From assembly GCA_021787335.1 (NCBI GenBank), contig JAJYMC010000028.1:1-41394 (forward strand): DNA of 41,394 nucleotides, written 5' to 3'. Under the pieces are notes generated by a model that did not search any database, was not told where the DNA came from, and saw only the letters and a program-made list of their open reading frames with translations. Of this stretch, positions 26,804 to 35,948 are shown piece by piece (within the stretch, counting starts at the first letter, position 1; every line of letters begins with the position of its first letter). Both the position numbers and the translations under genes were made by a program. Source of the stretch: Bacillota bacterium. GTDB lineage: Bacteria; Bacillota; Sulfobacillia; JAJYWN01; JAJZPE01.

Positions 26804-27745
26804 ATGAGCCGGAAGATGCGCTCATTGACCGCCTTCCTGGCCCTCTTTCTGGTGGCCATGGCCCTGGTACCGGGGTGCTCCCGGAAGGAGCATCACCGGG
26901 TGATCAGCCTTGCTCCGGGAAGCAGCGAACAGCCGGCTCCTGCCAACCCGGTTGGGACAGGCAAACCGCCGCTCCGAGTGGCCATTGCGGCCGTGATCTC
27001 GCCCCGGGAAACGCTCAGGTACTACGCGACGATGCTTGACTACCTTGGGGAGCAGCTTGACCGACCGGTACAGGTCATCCAGCGTCAGACCTACGCGGAA
27101 GTGAACAAGCTCATCAAGGAGGAGGCCATCGACCTCGCGTTCGTTTGCACCTACGCCTATGTCAAGGGCCGGGCTGAGTTCGGAATGGAGTTAATTGCCG
27201 CGCCCCAGGTTAACGGAAAGCCGTATTACTATTCGTACATCATCGCCCCGTCGGGCACTGACGCGCGAAGTATCATGGACCTGAAGGGGAAGACCTTCGC
27301 TTTCAGTGACCCGCTCTCGATGACCGGCCGGATCGTGCCCTCCTACCTCCTGCAGGAGAACGGTCAGACTCCGGAACGGTTCTTCAAGAAGTTCCTGTAC
27401 ACATACAGCCACGACAACTCCATCAAGGCAGTCGCCGACCGGCTGGTGGACGGGGCGGCCGTCGACAGCCTCGTATACGAGTTCACCGCAAAACACGAAC
27501 CGGCCCTGACGAAACAGGTCACGATCATCCAAAAGGTCGGCCCGTTCGGTACACCGCCGGTGGTCGTGCCTCCCGGACTGGACCCCGCCTTGAAGGAGAG
27601 GATCCGTTCGATCCTGTTGACGATGGACCGCACCAAGCGGGGCCGCGACATCCTCGCGGACATCATGGTGGAGCGGTTCGTCGTTCCGGACGACCGCCTC
27701 TACGATGAGGTCAGGCGGATGGCGGCGGCGGTACAGACGGAGTGA
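26804..27745 (+). CDS. PhnD-like substrate-binding lipoprotein
   Basis: A 313-residue periplasmic-type binding protein anchored as a lipoprotein: a signal peptide with lipobox LVPGC (Cys25), then a PhnD/phosphonate-type binding fold (RVAIAAVISPRETLRYYATMLDYL, AIDLAFVCTYAYV, DLKGKTFAFSDPLSMTGRI). No ABC transporter genes are nearby. Instead it overlaps a histidine kinase gene by four bases, so its likely job is to present a ligand to the kinase. TtrS of tetrathionate systems carries a similar fold within the kinase itself. GGAGGAGG precedes the ATG. Confidence 0.85.
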   Translation: MSRKMRSLTAFLALFLVAMALVPGCSRKEHHRVISLAPGSSEQPAPANPVGTGKPPLRVAIAAVISPRETLRYYATMLDYLGEQLDRPVQVIQRQTYAEVNKLIKEEAIDLAFVCTYAYVKGRAEFGMELIAAPQVNGKPYYYSYIIAPSGTDARSIMDLKGKTFAFSDPLSMTGRIVPSYLLQENGQTPERFFKKFLYTYSHDNSIKAVADRLVDGAAVDSLVYEFTAKHEPALTKQVTIIQKVGPFGTPPVVVPPGLDPALKERIRSILLTMDRTKRGRDILADIMVERFVVPDDRLYDEVRRMAAAVQTE

Positions 27746-29187
27746 TCGGGGCGATGCGTCGGATAACCGTGCTGTTCTGGACCGTCAACGGGTCGGTCAG
27801 CATCCGGGTGAAGATCATGGGCATCGTCCTGGTCCTGGTGGTCCTGCTCGGCCTGGGAATCACCATCCAGACCAGGCTCAGCCTCACCGCGACGCTGGAA
27901 CGCCAGCTCGAGCAACGGGGCGTGTCCGTCACCCGCGACCTGGCCGCGCGGAGCACGGACCTCCTCCTGACCAACAACCTTTTCGCCTTGTACCAACTGC
28001 TCAAGGACACCATCGAGAACAACGAGGACGTACGGTACGCCTTCATCCTCGGCCCCGACGGGAATGTCGTCGTTCACAGCTTCGGTCAGGGATTCCCGGC
28101 CGACCTGGCGGGGGCCAACGGGGTTGGCGGGGAACAACGGTCCAGCATCCAGGTGTTCAGGACGGAGGAAGGGTTGATCCACGACGTGGCTGTGCCGATT
28201 CTCGACGGCGAGGCCGGCGTGGCCAGGGTCGGGATGATGGAGGGCCACCTGCGGCAGGCCGTGAACGAGCTCACCAACAGGCAGTTGACGGCTACGGCCC
28301 TGGTCTCCCTGTTCGGCATCCTGGGGGCTCTTGTCCTGACGGCCGTCCTCACCAGGCCGACTCAGGAACTGGTGGAGGTGACGAAGGCCGTCTCGCGCGG
28401 CGACCTGCACCGGCGGGTGAAAGTCCTGGCGCGTGATGAGATCGGACAGCTTGGGCAGGCCTTCAATCGGATGACCGAGAATCTCGAACGATCCCGGCAG
28501 GAGCTGGAGCTGAAGGAGCAAATGAGGGTCCAGCTTCTCAGCAAGGTGATCTCGGCCCAGGAGGAGGAGCGCAAGCGCATCGCCCGCGAGCTGCATGACG
28601 AGACGAGCCAGGCCTTGACCTCTCTGCTGGTGGGCCTCAAGGTCCTGGAGAATAGCGGGACTCCGGCCGAGGCCAGGCGGATGGCCGGCGAGCTGCGGCA
28701 ACTGGCCGGGCAGACCCTGGAGGCCGTCCATGACCTGGCCCTGGAGCTACGGCCGAGCGCCCTGGACGACCTGGGGTTGGTGGCGGCCCTCAGTCGCTAC
28801 TGCAAGGAATACGCGGACAAGATGCGAATCCAGGTCGACCTCGAGGCGACGGGCTTTGACGGCCGGCCGAGGCTGGCCGCCCAGGTGGAGCTGACCCTCT
28901 ACCGGATCATCCAGGAGGCCTTGACCAACGTGGCCAAGCACGCCGACGCCCGTAACGCGAGCGTGGTCTTGGACTACCGCGAATCGGCGGTGAGCGCCAT
29001 TATCGAGGACGACGGTCGTGGGTTCAACGTGAGCCAGGTCATTCAGTCGGAGATCAAGGAAAGGCGGCTCGGGCTGTTCGGGATGCAGGAGCGGGCCTCA
29101 CTCCTGGGCGGCCGCCTGACGGTTGAGTCCCAGCCGGGAACGGGGACGACCGTGTACGTTAGCATCCCACTGGAGATGGCAGGATGA
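27742..29187 (+). CDS. NarL-family sensor histidine kinase
   Basis: A 481-residue membrane kinase. A membrane helix near residues 25-45 and another near 190-212 frame an outside sensor domain of about 140 residues. HAMP, a short coiled coil and a HisKA_3 dimerisation domain follow, with phospho-acceptor His285 in RIARELHDETSQ. The HATPase domain has TNVAKHADA (N box), EDDGRGF (G1) and GLFGMQERASLLGG (G2). GTG 27742 overlaps the lipoprotein stop (GTGA) and its stop overlaps the response regulator start (ATGA). It presumably reads the lipoprotein's ligand state. Confidence 0.92.
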   Translation: MIGAMRRITVLFWTVNGSVSIRVKIMGIVLVLVVLLGLGITIQTRLSLTATLERQLEQRGVSVTRDLAARSTDLLLTNNLFALYQLLKDTIENNEDVRYAFILGPDGNVVVHSFGQGFPADLAGANGVGGEQRSSIQVFRTEEGLIHDVAVPILDGEAGVARVGMMEGHLRQAVNELTNRQLTATALVSLFGILGALVLTAVLTRPTQELVEVTKAVSRGDLHRRVKVLARDEIGQLGQAFNRMTENLERSRQELELKEQMRVQLLSKVISAQEEERKRIARELHDETSQALTSLLVGLKVLENSGTPAEARRMAGELRQLAGQTLEAVHDLALELRPSALDDLGLVAALSRYCKEYADKMRIQVDLEATGFDGRPRLAAQVELTLYRIIQEALTNVAKHADARNASVVLDYRESAVSAIIEDDGRGFNVSQVIQSEIKERRLGLFGMQERASLLGGRLTVESQPGTGTTVYVSIPLEMAG

Positions 29188-29840
29188 GCAAGATGCGCCT
29201 GATTCTGGTCGATGACCACGCGGTGCTGAGGGCGGGGCTGCGGATGCTGCTCGACTCCCAGCCGGACATGCGCGTCATCGGCCAGGCCGCCGACGGCGAG
29301 GAGGCCCTTCGGATCTGCCGTGAGCTTCGCCCCGACGTGGTCCTGATGGATATCAGCTTGCCGGGCCTGAGCGGCATCGAGGTGACGAAGGCCCTCAGGC
29401 GGGAGTGCCCCCAGATCAGGATCCTGGTCCTGACGATGCACGACGACGAGGCCTACTTCAAGCAGGTCCTTCAGGCCGGCGGTTCCGGTTACGTGCTCAA
29501 GAGGGCGGCCGACACGGAACTCCTATCGGCCATCCGGGCTGTCCACCGCGGAGAGGTCTTCCTTTATCCGTCGATGGCCAAGCTCCTGGTGGAAGAGTTG
29601 CTGCAGGCCAAGCCGCCGGCGCCGGTGGGTGGGGCTCGCGAAGCCTCGACCAGCCTGAGCGGGCGGGAGAAAGAGGTCCTCCGGCTGATCGCCCTGGGTC
29701 ACACCAACCAGGAAATCGCTGACGCGCTGTATCTGAGCGTAAAGACGGTCGAGACCCACAAGGCCAGGATCATGACCAAACTTGGCACACGCAGCCGGTC
29801 GGAACTCGTCCGGTACGCCATGCAGCACAAGCTGGTTTAG
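29184..29840 (+). CDS. NarL/FixJ-family response regulator
   Basis: A 218-residue regulator with a receiver domain, phospho-acceptor Asp56 in VVLMDISLPG, the Thr/Lys switch residues in LVLTMHDD and YVLKRAAD, and a C-terminal LuxR helix-turn-helix (LSGREKEVLRLIALGHTNQEIADALYLSVKTVETH). It pairs with the kinase immediately upstream. Its likely targets are the downstream structural genes, whose upstream region holds two TTAATGGT direct repeats. A strong terminator follows. Confidence 0.93.
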   Translation: MSKMRLILVDDHAVLRAGLRMLLDSQPDMRVIGQAADGEEALRICRELRPDVVLMDISLPGLSGIEVTKALRRECPQIRILVLTMHDDEAYFKQVLQAGGSGYVLKRAADTELLSAIRAVHRGEVFLYPSMAKLLVEELLQAKPPAPVGGAREASTSLSGREKEVLRLIALGHTNQEIADALYLSVKTVETHKARIMTKLGTRSRSELVRYAMQHKLV

Positions 29841-29862: not shown

Positions 29863-29889
29863 GCCCCGGCAAACGGCCGGGGCTTTTTT
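29863..29889 (+). terminator. intrinsic terminator after the response regulator
   Basis: GCCCCGGC (29863-29870) pairs with GCCGGGGC (29876-29883) over a 5-base loop, followed by six Ts. The structural genes must therefore have their own promoter within 29890-30146. The rest of that gap has no gene but holds the operator-like sites listed next. Confidence 0.92.
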
Positions 29890-29903
29890 GTCGGGAGAAT
29901 GCC

Positions 29904-29942
29904 TTAATGGTCCAGCCACCCACCGGTGATTCCGTTAATGGT
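29904..29942 (+). promoter_or_regulatory. TTAATGGT direct repeats, possible response-regulator sites
   Basis: TTAATGGT occurs at 29904-29911 and 29935-29942, 31 bases apart, close to three helical turns. The pair lies upstream of the Rex-like operator. Direct repeats on the same DNA face fit activation by a LuxR-type regulator, but no known consensus is matched. Confidence 0.3.
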
Positions 29943-30017
29943 TTCGCCCTTGAGAGACCAGGGCAGGGCCGTAAAGTCAGCCCAAGAGATTCAGCGTTTG
30001 CACCGATAGTCAAGCCG

Positions 30018-30035
30018 TTGTGAGTGGGTGCACAA
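30018..30035 (+). promoter_or_regulatory. Rex operator candidate
   Basis: TTGTGAGTGGGTGCACAA matches the Gram-positive Rex consensus TTGTGAA-N4-TTCACAA at 12 of 14 defined positions, with exactly the required 18-base length and perfect TTGTG/CACAA outer arms. CACAAT at its right end could serve as a -10, so bound Rex would block transcription of the downstream molybdoenzyme genes. rex itself lies 11 kb upstream in this window. Confidence 0.6.
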
Positions 30036-30146
30036 TGTTGGCGGGAGGACGTGTGCCTCTTGCGACGATCACCCTTGTCAGAGGGGGTGTTGCTCGAAGG
30101 ACAGTCGGCAGAGGCTTCTTAAATCCGGGAGGAGGAGGAGGAGGAC

Positions 30147-30728
30147 ATGGCTGACAAGCGTTTCGGCATGGTGATCGACCTTCGCCGTTGCCACGGCTGC
30201 AAGGCTTGCCAGGTGGCCTGCAAGAGCGAGAACGACGTGCCGCTAGGCGTATGGCGCTCCTGGGTCAAGGAGGTCGAGCAAGGGACATACCCGAACGTAA
30301 AGCGACATTTCCTGCCACGGCTGTGCAATCATTGCGAGCATCCGGCCTGTGTTCGTAACTGCCCGACGGGAGCCTCATACAAGCGTCCCGACGGCGTGGT
30401 CCTGGTTGACCGGAACAAGTGTATCGGCTGCCGGTACTGCATAGCGTCGTGCCCCTACCAGTCGCGGTTCCTGCTGGCGGATGAGAAAGTGGCTGACAAG
30501 TGCACCTTCTGCGCCCACCGGGTGGACCAGGGGATCGTCCCGGCCTGCGTCAACACCTGCATCGCCCGGGCCCGCATCTTCGGGGATCTCAATGACCCGA
30601 ACAGTGAGGTCAGGCAGTTGGTCGACAGCCACCCGGTGCAGGTCCTAAAGCCGGAAGCTGGGCAGAGCCCGTCGGTGTTCTACATCGGAGCTGACGACAA
30701 CGCCATGAGAGGAAGTGAGGCCGGGTGA
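30147..30728 (+). CDS. four-cluster [4Fe-4S] ferredoxin subunit (PsrB/TtrB/DmsB type)
   Basis: The electron-transfer subunit of the molybdoenzyme complex, 193 residues. It has four Cys groups of the bacterial ferredoxin type: CHGCKACQVAC, CNHCEHPACVRNC, CIGCRYCIASC and CTFCAHRVDQG...CVNTC. Each matches the DmsB/PsrB pattern. It would pass electrons from the NrfD membrane subunit to the catalytic subunit. There is no signal peptide, so export would be by piggy-back on the Tat-borne catalytic subunit. GGGAGGAGGAGG precedes the ATG. Its stop overlaps the nrfD start. Confidence 0.93.
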   Translation: MADKRFGMVIDLRRCHGCKACQVACKSENDVPLGVWRSWVKEVEQGTYPNVKRHFLPRLCNHCEHPACVRNCPTGASYKRPDGVVLVDRNKCIGCRYCIASCPYQSRFLLADEKVADKCTFCAHRVDQGIVPACVNTCIARARIFGDLNDPNSEVRQLVDSHPVQVLKPEAGQSPSVFYIGADDNAMRGSEAG

Positions 30729-31645
30729 ACGCCTCGATAGTCTATGATGTCTTCCATGTCAACCCGTTCGGGTGGGTGGTCGCGGTGTACTTCACCGTGT
30801 CCGCCATGGCCGCCGGTGCCTTCCTCCTGGCCGCGGCCGTCAACCTGCTGGGGCTGAAGGGGCAGCAGGCTGTCGGGCGAACGGCCGCGCTCGTCGCGCC
30901 CCTGGCCGGAGCCCTCGCCGGGCTGCTTCTCATCGCCGAGTTGGGTCGGCCGACGCGGTTCTGGCGGGTGTTCACCCATTTCAACCCGGCCTCGCCGGTC
31001 TCATGGGGCGCGTTCATTCTTTTGGCTTTCATAATCATCGCGGTGTTGTACGCCCGTACCGTCCTGGCCGGCAAGGAGGAAGGAAGCAGGGGCCTCGTTG
31101 CGGCGGGTGCGGCATTGGCCTGCCTGATTCCCGTGTACACCGGGTTTGAACTCGTCCGGGGCCGTGTCAGCCCCCTCTGGAACAGTCCCCTCATCCCCGT
31201 CCTGTTCTTCTTCGCGGCCGGGGTGGTCGGCCTCAGCGCCGTCGTCCTCATCGGGTCGGCCCTGACCGCCGGCGTGGCTCGAAGACTCGGGGCCTCCGGG
31301 GTCGCGGCGGCCGGGGACGGGGTCGCGCCGGCCGCTGGGCTCGGCAAGACCATCGCCTTCTTCCTGGCCGGGAGCCTGGTTCTGGTGGTGATTCAACTGC
31401 TCGCCCTGGCCGGGGCATCGACCGAGGCGGTGACCATCGTCCGGAAGGTTCTGGCCGGCCGGTTCGCCGTCCTGTTCTGGGGCGGGTACCTGGCGGTGGG
31501 GACGGTCGTGCCGTTCGTCATCTTCACCGGGCGCGGCGCGGGCAATCGTACCCTGCAGGCCCTGGCTTCGCTCCTGGCGGTGCTTGGCGTCTTCGCCCTG
31601 AGGCTGGTGGACATCATCGGCGGGCAAAGCTTCCCACTCAACTGA
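30725..31645 (+). CDS. NrfD/PsrC-family membrane quinol-interacting subunit
   Basis: A 306-residue integral membrane protein with about eight helices of the NrfD/PsrC family. It exchanges electrons with menaquinone and anchors the complex to the membrane. Visible family features are VYFTVSAMAAGAFLLAA, LLLIAELGRPTRFWRVFTHFNPASPVSWGAF and YTGFELVRGRVSPLWNSPLIPVLFF. GTG 30725 overlaps the ferredoxin stop (GTGA). Its presence shows that the enzyme is tied to the quinone pool, and the menaquinone genes lie elsewhere in the window. Confidence 0.92.
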   Translation: MNASIVYDVFHVNPFGWVVAVYFTVSAMAAGAFLLAAAVNLLGLKGQQAVGRTAALVAPLAGALAGLLLIAELGRPTRFWRVFTHFNPASPVSWGAFILLAFIIIAVLYARTVLAGKEEGSRGLVAAGAALACLIPVYTGFELVRGRVSPLWNSPLIPVLFFFAAGVVGLSAVVLIGSALTAGVARRLGASGVAAAGDGVAPAAGLGKTIAFFLAGSLVLVVIQLLALAGASTEAVTIVRKVLAGRFAVLFWGGYLAVGTVVPFVIFTGRGAGNRTLQALASLLAVLGVFALRLVDIIGGQSFPLN

Positions 31646-31666: not shown

Positions 31667-34138
31667 GTGGAACTGACAAGACGGACATTTCTCAAGCTGG
31701 GCGCAGCCGGGGCGGCGACCTTCGCCATCAACGGTTCATTGAGCGGCGCCGCCCGGGCGATGGAGTTGAAGCTCGGCGGCAAGGACATCTCCAGGCTCAC
31801 CCGGAAGGAGCGGCAGGCCATCCCCAGCACCTGCATGCAGTGCGTGACGGCCTGCGGCATCATCGGCTACGTGGAGGACGACCGCCTGGTCAAACTGGAA
31901 GGCAACCCGGAAGCCTCGAACAACCGGGGCCGGATGTGCGCCCGCGGCCAGGCCGGCGTCAACCAGGTCTATGACCCGGACCGTATCCTGTACCCCATGA
32001 GGCGGGTCGGCCAGCGCGGCGAGGGCAAGTGGAAGAGGATCACCTGGGACGAGGCCCTCAACGAGATCACGGCCAAGCTGAAGGCCGTCCGCGACGGCGG
32101 CAAGCCGGAGGAATTCGTGTTCCATTACGGCCGCAACCGGATGTCCTGGATCCTCGACCCGTTCATGAACGCTTTCGGCTCGGCTTCGGTCGGCAACCAC
32201 ACCTCCATCTGTGAGGCCTCGAAGTTTGTCGCCCAGCAATCGATGTGGGGGCCATACCAGGACGTCAATGACGTAGCCAACGCCAAATACATCCTGGTGA
32301 TGGGGTGCAACCCCCTCGAGGCCCACACCGTGCACAACGCCCTCTGCCAGCGGGTCATCGACGCCCGCGCGGCGGGGGCCAGGATGGTCACCTTCGACGT
32401 CCGCCTGTCCAACACGGCGGCCCGGTCCGACAGGTGGTACCCGATCAAGCCGGGCACCGACGGGCTGGTCGCCCTGGCCATGGCCAACGTCATCATCCAG
32501 AACGGGCTCTATGACGAGGAGTTCATCGAGACCTGGACCAACGTTACGGTGGACGAGCTCAAAGAGCATCTGGCCCAGTTCACGACGGAGATGGCGGCCA
32601 GGGAGAGCGGTGTGCCGGCGGCGGACATCGAGAAGATCGCCGTGGAGTTCGCGACCATCAAGCCGTCGACGGTTATCTCCTACCGCGGGATGGTCTCACA
32701 CTATAACGGGATGATGAACGAACGATGCGTCATGCTCCTAGAGGCCATCGCCGGCAACATCGACGTCAAGGGTGGGCGCTGCCTGAAGCGCACCGGCAAG
32801 TGGGCCAACCCCTTTGGAAGCCCCAAAGAGGCCAAGGCCAAGATCGGGGCCGTCGACCCAAAGAAAGATTATCCCCTGGCGGCCCATAAGGTGGCCCAGG
32901 AGGTCCTACCCCGGATCGGCAAGGGTGAGGGCAAAGTCCAGGTTTACTGGACGTATTGCATCAACCCGCCCTATGTCATGCCTGACGGCAACCGGCAGAT
33001 GGAAGTCCTCAAAGACGAGAAGGCCATCCCCTTCCACGTCTGCTCCGACGCCTACTACAGTGAAAACGCGGCCCTGGCCGATCTCATCCTGCCGGACGCC
33101 ACCTATCTCGAGCGGTACGATCCCGAGACGAGCCCGTCTTTCACCATCGTCCCGTTCATCCAGGTCCGCCAGGCGATCACCAACCCCCTCGGCGAGTCCA
33201 GACCGACCCAGGACGTCCTGATGGAGCTGGCGCGCCGGCTCGGGATCGGGGACTTCCTCAACGGGATCAAGGATAGCGCGGAGTACCTGCGGAAGGCGGC
33301 CGACGCCACCGAGGGCCTGAAGGACGTCGGCGGCTGGGAGTACATCCGCAAGGTCGGCGCCTGGTACGACAAGGGCAAGAAGCCGGACTACAAGTCCTAC
33401 GCCAAGGAGCTGAAGCCCGAGGACCTGAAGCCCAAGAGCAAGGACGAGAGAATCGTCGTCGATGGGAAGACCGGGACTGTCTACAAGCTGGACAAGGACC
33501 ACCCCGACAAGTACGAGTCCGACAAGCAGTACGTCGGGATCCGGATCGGGGGCAAGTACTACAAAGGCTTCAAGCCCTACAAGTTCCCGATTTCGGGCAA
33601 GTTCGAGATCCGCTCGGCGCTCATGGCCAAGTACGGCTTCCCTGAACTCCCCACCTACATCCCAATCCCCACGCATCAGAGCATGAAGCCGGACGAGCTG
33701 ATTCTGACCACCTTCAAAGTCAACGTCCACACCCAGTCGAGGACCCAGAACTGCAAGTGGCTGACCGAGATCCACAACGACAATGCCGTATGGATCAACC
33801 CGGTGACGGCGGCCAAGCGAGGGGTCGCCGACGGCGACCTGGTCAAGGTGACCTCCAAGGTGGGCTCCATGGAGGTCAGGGCCCGCGTCACGGAAGGCAT
33901 CCACCCCGGCGTGGTGGCCGTCTCCTTCCACAGCGGCCACTGGCAGTACGGCCGGTACTGCTCGGGGAAGAAGGCCCCCGCGGGGGTCGGTGACGGCGAA
34001 GACCGCCATGTCTGGTGGAAGAACTTCGGCGTCTTGCCCAACCTGATCATTCCCGTCGCCACCGACCCCATCGGCGGCGGACAGGCGTATATGGATACCG
34101 TCGTCACGGTGGACAAGACCCAGGCAGGGAGAGGATGA
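31667..34138 (+). CDS. Tat-exported molybdopterin oxidoreductase catalytic subunit (PsrA/PhsA/TtrA/ArrA-like)
   Basis: The 823-residue catalytic subunit of a DMSO-reductase-family enzyme. It starts with a twin-arginine signal (Arg5-Arg6, TRRTFLKLG). Next comes the [4Fe-4S] site Cys56-x2-Cys59-x3-Cys63-x27-Cys91, Mo-bisPGD domains, and a C-terminal molydopterin-binding domain (NDNAVWINPVTAAKRGVADGDLV). The likely Mo ligand is Cys182 in TSICEASK, placing it with the Cys-ligated thiosulfate, polysulfide, tetrathionate and arsenate reductases. A Lys-rich stretch near residues 565-650 looks lineage-specific. The substrate is not predictable. GTG 31667 follows AAGGAGGG. Confidence 0.93.
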   Translation: MELTRRTFLKLGAAGAATFAINGSLSGAARAMELKLGGKDISRLTRKERQAIPSTCMQCVTACGIIGYVEDDRLVKLEGNPEASNNRGRMCARGQAGVNQVYDPDRILYPMRRVGQRGEGKWKRITWDEALNEITAKLKAVRDGGKPEEFVFHYGRNRMSWILDPFMNAFGSASVGNHTSICEASKFVAQQSMWGPYQDVNDVANAKYILVMGCNPLEAHTVHNALCQRVIDARAAGARMVTFDVRLSNTAARSDRWYPIKPGTDGLVALAMANVIIQNGLYDEEFIETWTNVTVDELKEHLAQFTTEMAARESGVPAADIEKIAVEFATIKPSTVISYRGMVSHYNGMMNERCVMLLEAIAGNIDVKGGRCLKRTGKWANPFGSPKEAKAKIGAVDPKKDYPLAAHKVAQEVLPRIGKGEGKVQVYWTYCINPPYVMPDGNRQMEVLKDEKAIPFHVCSDAYYSENAALADLILPDATYLERYDPETSPSFTIVPFIQVRQAITNPLGESRPTQDVLMELARRLGIGDFLNGIKDSAEYLRKAADATEGLKDVGGWEYIRKVGAWYDKGKKPDYKSYAKELKPEDLKPKSKDERIVVDGKTGTVYKLDKDHPDKYESDKQYVGIRIGGKYYKGFKPYKFPISGKFEIRSALMAKYGFPELPTYIPIPTHQSMKPDELILTTFKVNVHTQSRTQNCKWLTEIHNDNAVWINPVTAAKRGVADGDLVKVTSKVGSMEVRARVTEGIHPGVVAVSFHSGHWQYGRYCSGKKAPAGVGDGEDRHVWWKNFGVLPNLIIPVATDPIGGGQAYMDTVVTVDKTQAGRG

Positions 34139-34140
34139 CG

Positions 34141-34851
34141 ATGGAGCGAGTCGTTTCCCCGGGGGAAGTGGCCGGTCAGCGCGGCGGAGTCTACGGGATC
34201 CTGGCCCAGGTCTTCCTGAAGGAGATGGATCGGGCCCTCCTGCGGACACTGAGGGCCCCGGAACTCGCCTCGGCCCTGGCCGAGCTCGGGTTGGACCCGG
34301 TCGACACACTGGGCCAGGCGCCGGAGGCGCAAGTTCTTGAAGCGCTGGCGGTTGATTACGCCGGGCTGTTCCTGGGGCCCGGGCCGCACGTCCCGCCGTA
34401 CGAATCGGTGTTTGTCGGCCCCGATGCAGGGGACGGCCAAGGTTCGTTGTGCGGGGAGCCGGCGGTCCGCATGCGCCGGCTGGCGGAAGAAGAGGGGCTG
34501 GAAATCTCGCCGGAACTGACGGCGATTCCCGACCATCTGGCGGTGGAGCTCGAGTACATGCAACGGCTGGCCTCCGCGGAGGCCGAGCAGTGGCTGGCCG
34601 GTGATCACGCCGCGGCCGCGGCCATCCGGGAGAAGCAGCGCGTTTTCCTGGACGAGCACCTGGGCCGATGGCTGCCGGCCTTCGTCTCCAGGGTGGCTGA
34701 GGCGTCGAGGTCTTCCTTCTACCGCAAGATGGCTGAGCTTGCGGGCGAGTTCACGGCCGAGGACCGTAGGCTCCTCGACGACCGGCGCCCTGAGAGGACG
34801 ACTGGTTCAGACCCCGGACCTGACCCCGATGGGTGGCCAAACCAGTGCTGA
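34141..34851 (+). CDS. TorD/DmsD-family molybdoenzyme chaperone
   Basis: A 236-residue all-helical chaperone that would hold the catalytic subunit's Tat signal until the molybdenum cofactor is loaded. The family signature is IPDHLAVELEYMQRL, with YAGLFLGPGPHVPPYESVF earlier. ATG 34141 is preferred: AGGGAGAGG ends six bases upstream, while ATG 34135 overlapping the previous stop sits too close. It follows the catalytic gene directly. The last 19 bases overlap the next gene. Confidence 0.88.
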   Translation: MERVVSPGEVAGQRGGVYGILAQVFLKEMDRALLRTLRAPELASALAELGLDPVDTLGQAPEAQVLEALAVDYAGLFLGPGPHVPPYESVFVGPDAGDGQGSLCGEPAVRMRRLAEEEGLEISPELTAIPDHLAVELEYMQRLASAEAEQWLAGDHAAAAAIREKQRVFLDEHLGRWLPAFVSRVAEASRSSFYRKMAELAGEFTAEDRRLLDDRRPERTTGSDPGPDPDGWPNQC

Positions 34852-35948
34852 GTCTCGAGTTCCTGACCAAAGCGATTTCGCCGGTGCTCGTCACGCCGCA
34901 GCAGTGTACCGTGGCCCGCCACCAGCGGTCGGCTTGCCGGCGGTGCGCGGAGGCCTGTCCGGTCGGTTGTCTCTCGATAGACCGGGGGCCGGTCCTCGAC
35001 GCCGAAGAGTGCGACGGGTGCGGCCTCTGTACGGCGGCCTGCCCCACCGGGGCCCTCCGGTTGCGGGGGATATCTCTTTCGGACATCGCCAGGGGCGGCC
35101 GGACTCTGACCATGACCTGCCGTTACGGGGAAGCGCCCGGTCCCGACGCGATTGGCCTTCCGTGCCTGGGCTGGCTGACGGCCGATCACCTGGTGTGGCT
35201 GGGGCTGTCCACGGGCGGCCCGGTCGTCCTGGCCATGGGCGATTGCGATTCCTGCAGGTGCTCGTTGGGACGGGAAATGGCGTTGACGGCCATCCGAAGG
35301 AGCCGCGGAGTCCTGCGAGCGGCGGGCCGGACTGAGGCCTCGTTCAGGCACGGCTCCGCTGCCCGTTCTCGCGCTTCAGGGGGGCGGCCCGTCGTGATAT
35401 CTGTGACCCGCAAGGAGCTCTTCTCCCTGGTCCGCAGAGAGGCTCTCCGGTTGGCGGTGGCCGCCGGTGAGGAACTGATCCCGCTCTGGACCGACGATCC
35501 CGCCCGGCCGGCTTACCTCATCCCACAGCGGCGTACGGCCTGGCTCGCCTTGGCCCGCCGGATGGAATGGCCGGATGAAATCAGTCCGGCCGACCAGCTG
35601 CCGCAGGCGGCAAGGGCCATCACCGGGGGGTGCGACGGCTGCGGAATGTGTGCCCGCTCTTGCCCTTCCGGTGCGTTGCGTCTGGCCGGAGAAGTCATCA
35701 CCCACAACTCGGAGATCTGCCTGAACTGCGGATTGTGCCTGAGTCTGTGCCCGAGGGGCCTGGTCCGAGAGGCCCCGGGATTGAGCCTGGCGGGACTCGG
35801 GCGGGGGCGGCGCCGCGTATTGGTGACTCTTATGCGACAGCGTTGTCAGGCTTGCGGGCACGAGTATCTCACCGATGCCGACGAGGCGCAGACCCAGGCA
35901 ATCTGTTCATCATGCCGGGCCGAACGGCGAGTGCTTGGATTGACCTGA
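34833..35948 (+). CDS. multi-cluster ferredoxin-like protein with zinc-ribbon tail
   Basis: A 371-residue soluble protein in distinct parts. Residues about 30-80 hold a two-cluster ferredoxin unit (CRRCAEACPVGC and CDGCGLCTAACPTGAL). Residues 95-150 have a Cys-bearing segment (CRYGEAP, LPCLGWL, GDCDSCRCSLG) resembling those in other ferredoxin-associated electron-transfer proteins. Residues 265-315 hold a second unit (CDGCGMCARSCPSGAL and CLNCGLCLSLCPRGLV). The C-terminus has CQACG...CSSC, zinc-ribbon-like. I do not know its function; the place between torD and tatA suggests electron supply to, or maturation of, the molybdoenzyme. GTG 34833 overlaps torD; GTG 34845 is an alternative. Confidence 0.75.
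   Translation: MAKPVLSLEFLTKAISPVLVTPQQCTVARHQRSACRRCAEACPVGCLSIDRGPVLDAEECDGCGLCTAACPTGALRLRGISLSDIARGGRTLTMTCRYGEAPGPDAIGLPCLGWLTADHLVWLGLSTGGPVVLAMGDCDSCRCSLGREMALTAIRRSRGVLRAAGRTEASFRHGSAARSRASGGRPVVISVTRKELFSLVRREALRLAVAAGEELIPLWTDDPARPAYLIPQRRTAWLALARRMEWPDEISPADQLPQAARAITGGCDGCGMCARSCPSGALRLAGEVITHNSEICLNCGLCLSLCPRGLVREAPGLSLAGLGRGRRRVLVTLMRQRCQACGHEYLTDADEAQTQAICSSCRAERRVLGLT

Follow-up and report, generated by a model that had tools for sequence, protein, structure and literature searches.

A probable Rex operator ahead of an anaerobic molybdoenzyme operon in a bacterium of the class Sulfobacillia

Which signals govern an operon for an anaerobic molybdoenzyme when its upstream region holds both the marks of two-component control and a palindrome resembling the target of the NADH/NAD+-responsive regulator Rex? 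This question arises from the window, by which we mean the whole 41,394-nucleotide stretch analysed here (contig JAJYMC010000028.1 of assembly GCA_021787335.1, a Bacillota bacterium). The original prediction took the 18-mer TTGTGAGTGGGTGCACAA to be a Rex operator that adds redox control to that of the two-component system, and the 18-mer was found exactly as written (Table 1). Our analysis suggests that the palindrome is probably a Rex operator ahead of the molybdoenzyme operon. We assign a probability of about 0.62 to the whole picture, in which Rex would sit in the 5' leader and block RNA polymerase while a response regulator activates the promoter.

Sequence and genomic company of the palindrome

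Direct comparison with the Rex consensus TTGTGAA-N4-TTCACAA (TTGTGAANNNNTTCACAA) bore out the predicted match at 12 of 14 positions with exact spacing, the two deviations being an A to G change at position 7 and a T to G change at position 13. Elsewhere in the window, nothing came within three mismatches of this consensus (shuffled sequences give 0.26), and under a first-order Markov model of the window, matches with at most two mismatches are expected 0.015 times per window and 1.3 times per 3.55-Mb genome. The palindrome also fits TTGTGA-N6-TCACAA with a single mismatch and meets 9 of the 10 positions of the TGTGA-N6-TCACA core typical of CRP/HcpR-type sites. On a weight matrix built from 11 sites bound in vitro by Streptomyces avermitilis Rex (sequences from PMC5355995), it scored 21.1, a value expected 0.003 times per window and about 0.27 times per genome and falling inside the range of 12.9-25.7 obtained by leaving out the 11 bound sites one at a time. 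Under this treatment, the sites published for atp, nuo, and hppA scored 20.4-21.2, and the second-best score within the window was 13.9. The matrix ranking, which covered the pattern-selected sites and about 236 kb of the genome, placed TTGTGAGTGGGTGCACAA third among the 34 candidate sites from the genome-wide pattern scan. The sequence match, together with its rarity, goes beyond chance by these computations. The rex operator of Streptomyces known from footprinting, TTGTGCACGCGTTCACAA, has the same right half-site, TTGTGCAC (PMC5355995). Staphylococcus aureus Rex prefers an A/T spacer, which counts against the G-rich spacer TGGG of TTGTGAGTGGGTGCACAA, and changes at positions 6 and 7 of the half-site, the ones at which TTGTGAGTGGGTGCACAA deviates, weaken its binding (PMC2883068).

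Scanning the whole genome for TTGTGA-N6-TCACAA yielded 1 perfect, 3 one-mismatch, and 30 two-mismatch sites, against 17 in all for the reversed control. The four sites with at most one mismatch, the only ones in 3.55 Mb, are all intergenic, while some 11 to 13 of those with two mismatches are intragenic. The perfect site, at C21:33251, precedes a [NiFe] hydrogenase operon that encodes an FAD/NAD-binding subunit as well as the small and large [NiFe] subunits. Of the three one-mismatch sites, the first is TTGTGAGTGGGTGCACAA, the second, at C23:28195, stands at the front of the operon for the F-type ATP synthase, and the third falls in the stretch that separates an AbrB-like gene from an AroM/DUF1177 operon; weaker sites lie ahead of nuoA, a multihaem cytochrome (two sites), etfB, ccmE, and an hdrC-like gene, all these names having been read from translations, with a Pfam check that covers part of the proteins. 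Classical Rex targets thus carry the motif in the same genome, strongly for hydrogenase and atp and weakly for nuo, and TTGTGAGTGGGTGCACAA ranks beside both strong ones, as expected of a genuine Rex site. By the 14-position count, TTGTGAGTGGGTGCACAA ties at 12 of 14 with the atp site and two intragenic sites, so plain counting does not single it out; however, those two intragenic sites reach only 16.5-17.4 on the Rex matrix. The many equally good sites inside genes that would have spoken against Rex were therefore not found. A TTGTTA-type motif was also tried and gave 12 matches in the genome versus 11 in the control, indicating that it is not the main Rex form here. The rex gene that had been noted in the window is present in a single copy in the genome, and no operator was seen just upstream of rex itself.

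At two places in this genome, Rex-like sites come in pairs. The two at the multihaem cytochrome lie 93 bp apart, ahead of a gene whose product has an S-layer domain, near the ATP synthase genes (G000 C23, L029:6065-6175), and a DeoR/ArsR-like gene beside nuoN has one such site and a second one, TTGTAAACTTATTCACCT (G000 C18, L030:3175-3245). The promoter of the latter gene is partly conserved in genome G002, where its Rex-like site recurs. The congeneric genome G001 has just one site within one mismatch, the atp one, with exactly the same bases, and G003 has sites ahead of a hydrogenase-type operon, an hdrC-like gene, and a cytochrome b.

Promoter region and operon

The terminator that closes the operon for the binding protein, kinase, and response regulator leaves a separate promoter region of 257 bp (29890-30146) ahead of the molybdoenzyme operon. 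TTGTGAGTGGGTGCACAA lies within it, 111 bp 5' of the ATG of the Fe-S subunit gene. The sole promoter-like pair found in this region, TTGAGA-16-TAAAGT (shuffled sequences give 0.1), predicts a start of transcription at about 29984, so that the operator would span roughly +35 to +52, downstream of the pair. The earlier proposal that CACAAT at the edge of TTGTGAGTGGGTGCACAA serves as the -10 proved unsupported, as no -35 lies 16-18 bp from it. With the better promoter upstream of TTGTGAGTGGGTGCACAA, the operator would act as a block. Such a position suits this role, given that S. avermitilis Rex protects -3 to +25 at cydA and +108 to +135 at wblE (PMC5355995).

Table 1. Features of the window around rex and the molybdoenzyme operon.
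Feature	Coordinates	Strand	Remarks
rex, 214 aa	18181-18825	+	E 1.8e-43 to solved Rex 2vt2; only PF06971 gene of the genome
PhnD-type periplasmic binding protein, probably sensor partner	26804-27745	+	PF12974
Sensor histidine kinase	27742-29187	+	sCache_3_2, HAMP, HisKA_3
NarL/LuxR-type response regulator	29184-29840	+	
Intrinsic terminator closing the binding protein-kinase-regulator operon	29863-29889	+	sequence pattern
Candidate response-regulator site, copy 1	29894-29911 (core TTAATGGT, 29904-29911)	+	direct repeat
Candidate response-regulator site, copy 2	29925-29942 (core TTAATGGT, 29935-29942)	+	7 bp upstream of the -35
Promoter-like pair TTGAGA-16-TAAAGT	29950-29977	+	
Candidate Rex operator TTGTGAGTGGGTGCACAA	30018-30035	.	
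Four-cluster-type Fe-S subunit (TtrB/DsrO-like), first gene of the operon	30147-30728	+	
NrfD-type membrane subunit	30725-31645	+	PF03916
Molybdopterin catalytic subunit, Tat-exported, PhsA/PsrA-like	31667-34138	+	Tat signal; Cys aligned at the Mo ligand
TorD-family chaperone	34135-34851	+	
Ferredoxin-like protein	34833-35948	+	several 4Fe-4S motifs

Upstream of the promoter-like pair, TTAATGGT occurs twice, around -80 and -50, the copies being separated by three helical turns (31 bp); each forms the core of an 18-nt direct repeat, and the two repeats are 78% identical. This pair with its 31-bp spacing is unique in the genome, the next best having three mismatches, and, judged from sequence, the repeats are the best candidates for response-regulator binding. 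The ferredoxin-like gene is followed by TatA and molybdenum-cofactor genes. The nearest match to the catalytic subunit is thiosulfate/polysulfide reductase (PDB 2vpw, E 3.5e-75); this subunit shares at most 52% identity with the named relatives found, and has an aligned Cys that we take to be at the molybdenum ligand position, as in PsrA.

From this arrangement, we infer Rex binding and a direction of control as follows. When NAD+ is plentiful relative to NADH, a Rex dimer would occupy about +35 to +52 and block RNA polymerase, and when electron acceptors run short, the accumulation of NADH would cause Rex to leave and the block to be lifted. Positive control would come from the PhnD-type binding protein, the kinase, and the NarL-type regulator, the last acting on the TTAATGGT repeats. 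If true, this predicts that the molybdoenzyme is produced solely when two conditions coincide, a sensed acceptor and an excess of reducing power in the form of NADH, and it would add a complex iron-sulfur molybdoenzyme operon from a little-studied class to the Rex regulon.

Alternative readings of the site

The Rex reading of the original prediction held as far as the site's rank beside the hydrogenase and atp sites is concerned, although it overlooked, besides proposing an unsupported -10, a second claimant in the genome. This claimant, the most serious rival to Rex, is the one clear Crp/Fnr protein (contig C44), encoded next to norB and DUF1858-type genes; were this HcpR- or DNR-like sensor to bind the palindrome, the operon would answer to a signal other than NADH, such as NO or oxygen. 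Its recognition helix, SRETVSR, is of the CRP type, with what we take to be the CRP-type Arg and Glu, and predicts TGTGA-N6-TCACA. The helix contacts follow in part the work on Desulfovibrio, where exactly TTGTGAN6TCACAA (TTGTGANNNNNNTCACAA) was assigned to HcpR and where electron-acceptor genes, one of them for a putative thiosulfate reductase, were given HcpR sites (PMC545781); by pattern, the motif here is indistinguishable from such HcpR/CRP-type operators. A likely operator of the Crp/Fnr protein itself, TGTGAC-N4-CGCACAA, lies about 100 bp 5' of norB (L028:3626-3643, G000 C44:83625), and its retention in G001 (L274:4164-4181, G001 C211) inside diverged DNA indicates that a CRP-type site is probably in use. 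Although this norB site shares with TTGTGAGTGGGTGCACAA the T to G change at position 13, its Rex-matrix score is only 12.2 and it has no outer T; TTGTGAGTGGGTGCACAA, by contrast, retains both ends, TTG and CAA, as do the sites of atp and hydrogenase. The predicted promoter position likewise favours Rex, since no -10 lies at a CRP-type activator distance (-41.5, -61.5) from TTGTGAGTGGGTGCACAA and the site falls downstream of the predicted start, an argument that bears on an activator and not on a repressing CRP-type protein.

The distribution of sites across the class lends the Crp/Fnr protein some further weight. In 61 class genomes, 45 perfect places were found versus 1 in the control, 4 of the 45 being copies of one repeat in G040. 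Among the 46 genomes that encode both Rex and Crp/Fnr, 27 had perfect sites, as did 1 of the 12 encoding Rex alone and none of the 3 encoding Crp/Fnr alone, an association that is confounded by lineage and genome size; being commoner where Crp/Fnr is present, some of these class sites may belong to Crp. In favour of Rex, G034 has a perfect site that overlaps the nuoA start, and in G033, which has Rex and no Crp/Fnr match, one lies 67 bp upstream of an NADH-dehydrogenase-like gene. Taking both sides together, we consider control by the Crp/Fnr protein instead of Rex unlikely. The locus nevertheless offers a concrete case for telling Rex sites from CRP/HcpR sites where one consensus is common to both. 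The G040 repeat consists of four copies of TTGTGAAAATAATCACAA on one small contig (C285:2099-4555, L160).

The palindrome could instead be a functionless product of chance in a GC-rich promoter region, a possibility fed by the 1.3 matches per genome expected from plain counting and by the failure to find an orthologous promoter that would confirm conservation. No close orthologue of the operon was found among 154 class genomes, which gave one molybdenum subunit homologue at 40%, no conserved operator was found ahead of distant operon homologues, and 80 named loci, with molybdenum subunits at most 52% identical, yielded no convincing operator ahead of the operon. Against this, the expectation at the matrix score falls to 0.27 per genome and 0.003 per window, the site lies within the 257-bp promoter region ahead of an anaerobic operon, and every other top site is intergenic, making chance a distinctly improbable explanation. 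There is also a slim prospect that the palindrome is a shared operator, read by Rex for NADH/NAD+ and by Crp/Fnr, atop a response-regulator-driven promoter, so that three signals would meet on a single respiratory operon. That it is an element of another regulator, such as a second site of the adjacent response regulator, is very improbable: NarL-type regulators can bind inverted repeats, but TTGTGAGTGGGTGCACAA is unlike the TTAATGGT repeats, which occupy the activator positions, and resembles the hydrogenase and atp promoter sites, which have no such regulator as neighbour.

Known systems and related loci

Read as a Rex operator, the site is probably a new example of a well-known switch with a different enzyme rather than a new mechanism. 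It resembles the Streptomyces Rex operators (S. avermitilis and S. coelicolor ROP; PMC5355995) in its high-GC genome, a consensus with one or two mismatches, GC-rich spacers, the half-site TTGTGCAC, the atp and nuo targets, and its predicted position downstream of the start, as in some of their operators. It differs from them in that the target is an anaerobic molybdoenzyme operon, in the lack of an operator just upstream of rex, and in being deduced from sequence. S. aureus Rex binds ahead of narG, nirC, and nirR, and positive control there comes from NreB, NirR, and/or ArcR (PMC2883068), so redox control atop other control of an anaerobic reductase has precedent. Both cases combine an anaerobic molybdenum reductase under Rex, here predicted, with additional positive control, whereas the S. 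aureus enzyme is a nitrate reductase of another family, its operator has an A/T spacer, and both binding and the effects of a rex mutation were demonstrated there. The sensing and catalytic genes recall TtrSR/TtrBCA and Psr/Phs-type complexes through the PhnD-type sensing partner, the Fe-S, NrfD, and molybdenum subunits, Tat export, and the TorD chaperone, but three separate sensing genes, a NarL-type regulator, and a catalytic subunit at most 52% identical to the named relatives found set the present locus apart.

In G003, the locus corresponding to this one (C14:28000-42000, L278) contains neither the operator nor the TTAATGGT repeat and shares only the 10-mer GAGTGGGTGC, which is compatible with chance. 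Its genes for binding protein, kinase, regulator, Fe-S subunit, NrfD, TatA, and MoeA-like protein follow the same order as here, while the molybdenum subunit is different and larger (~1070 aa), so that the catalytic gene seems to have been swapped inside a conserved regulatory and maturation frame.
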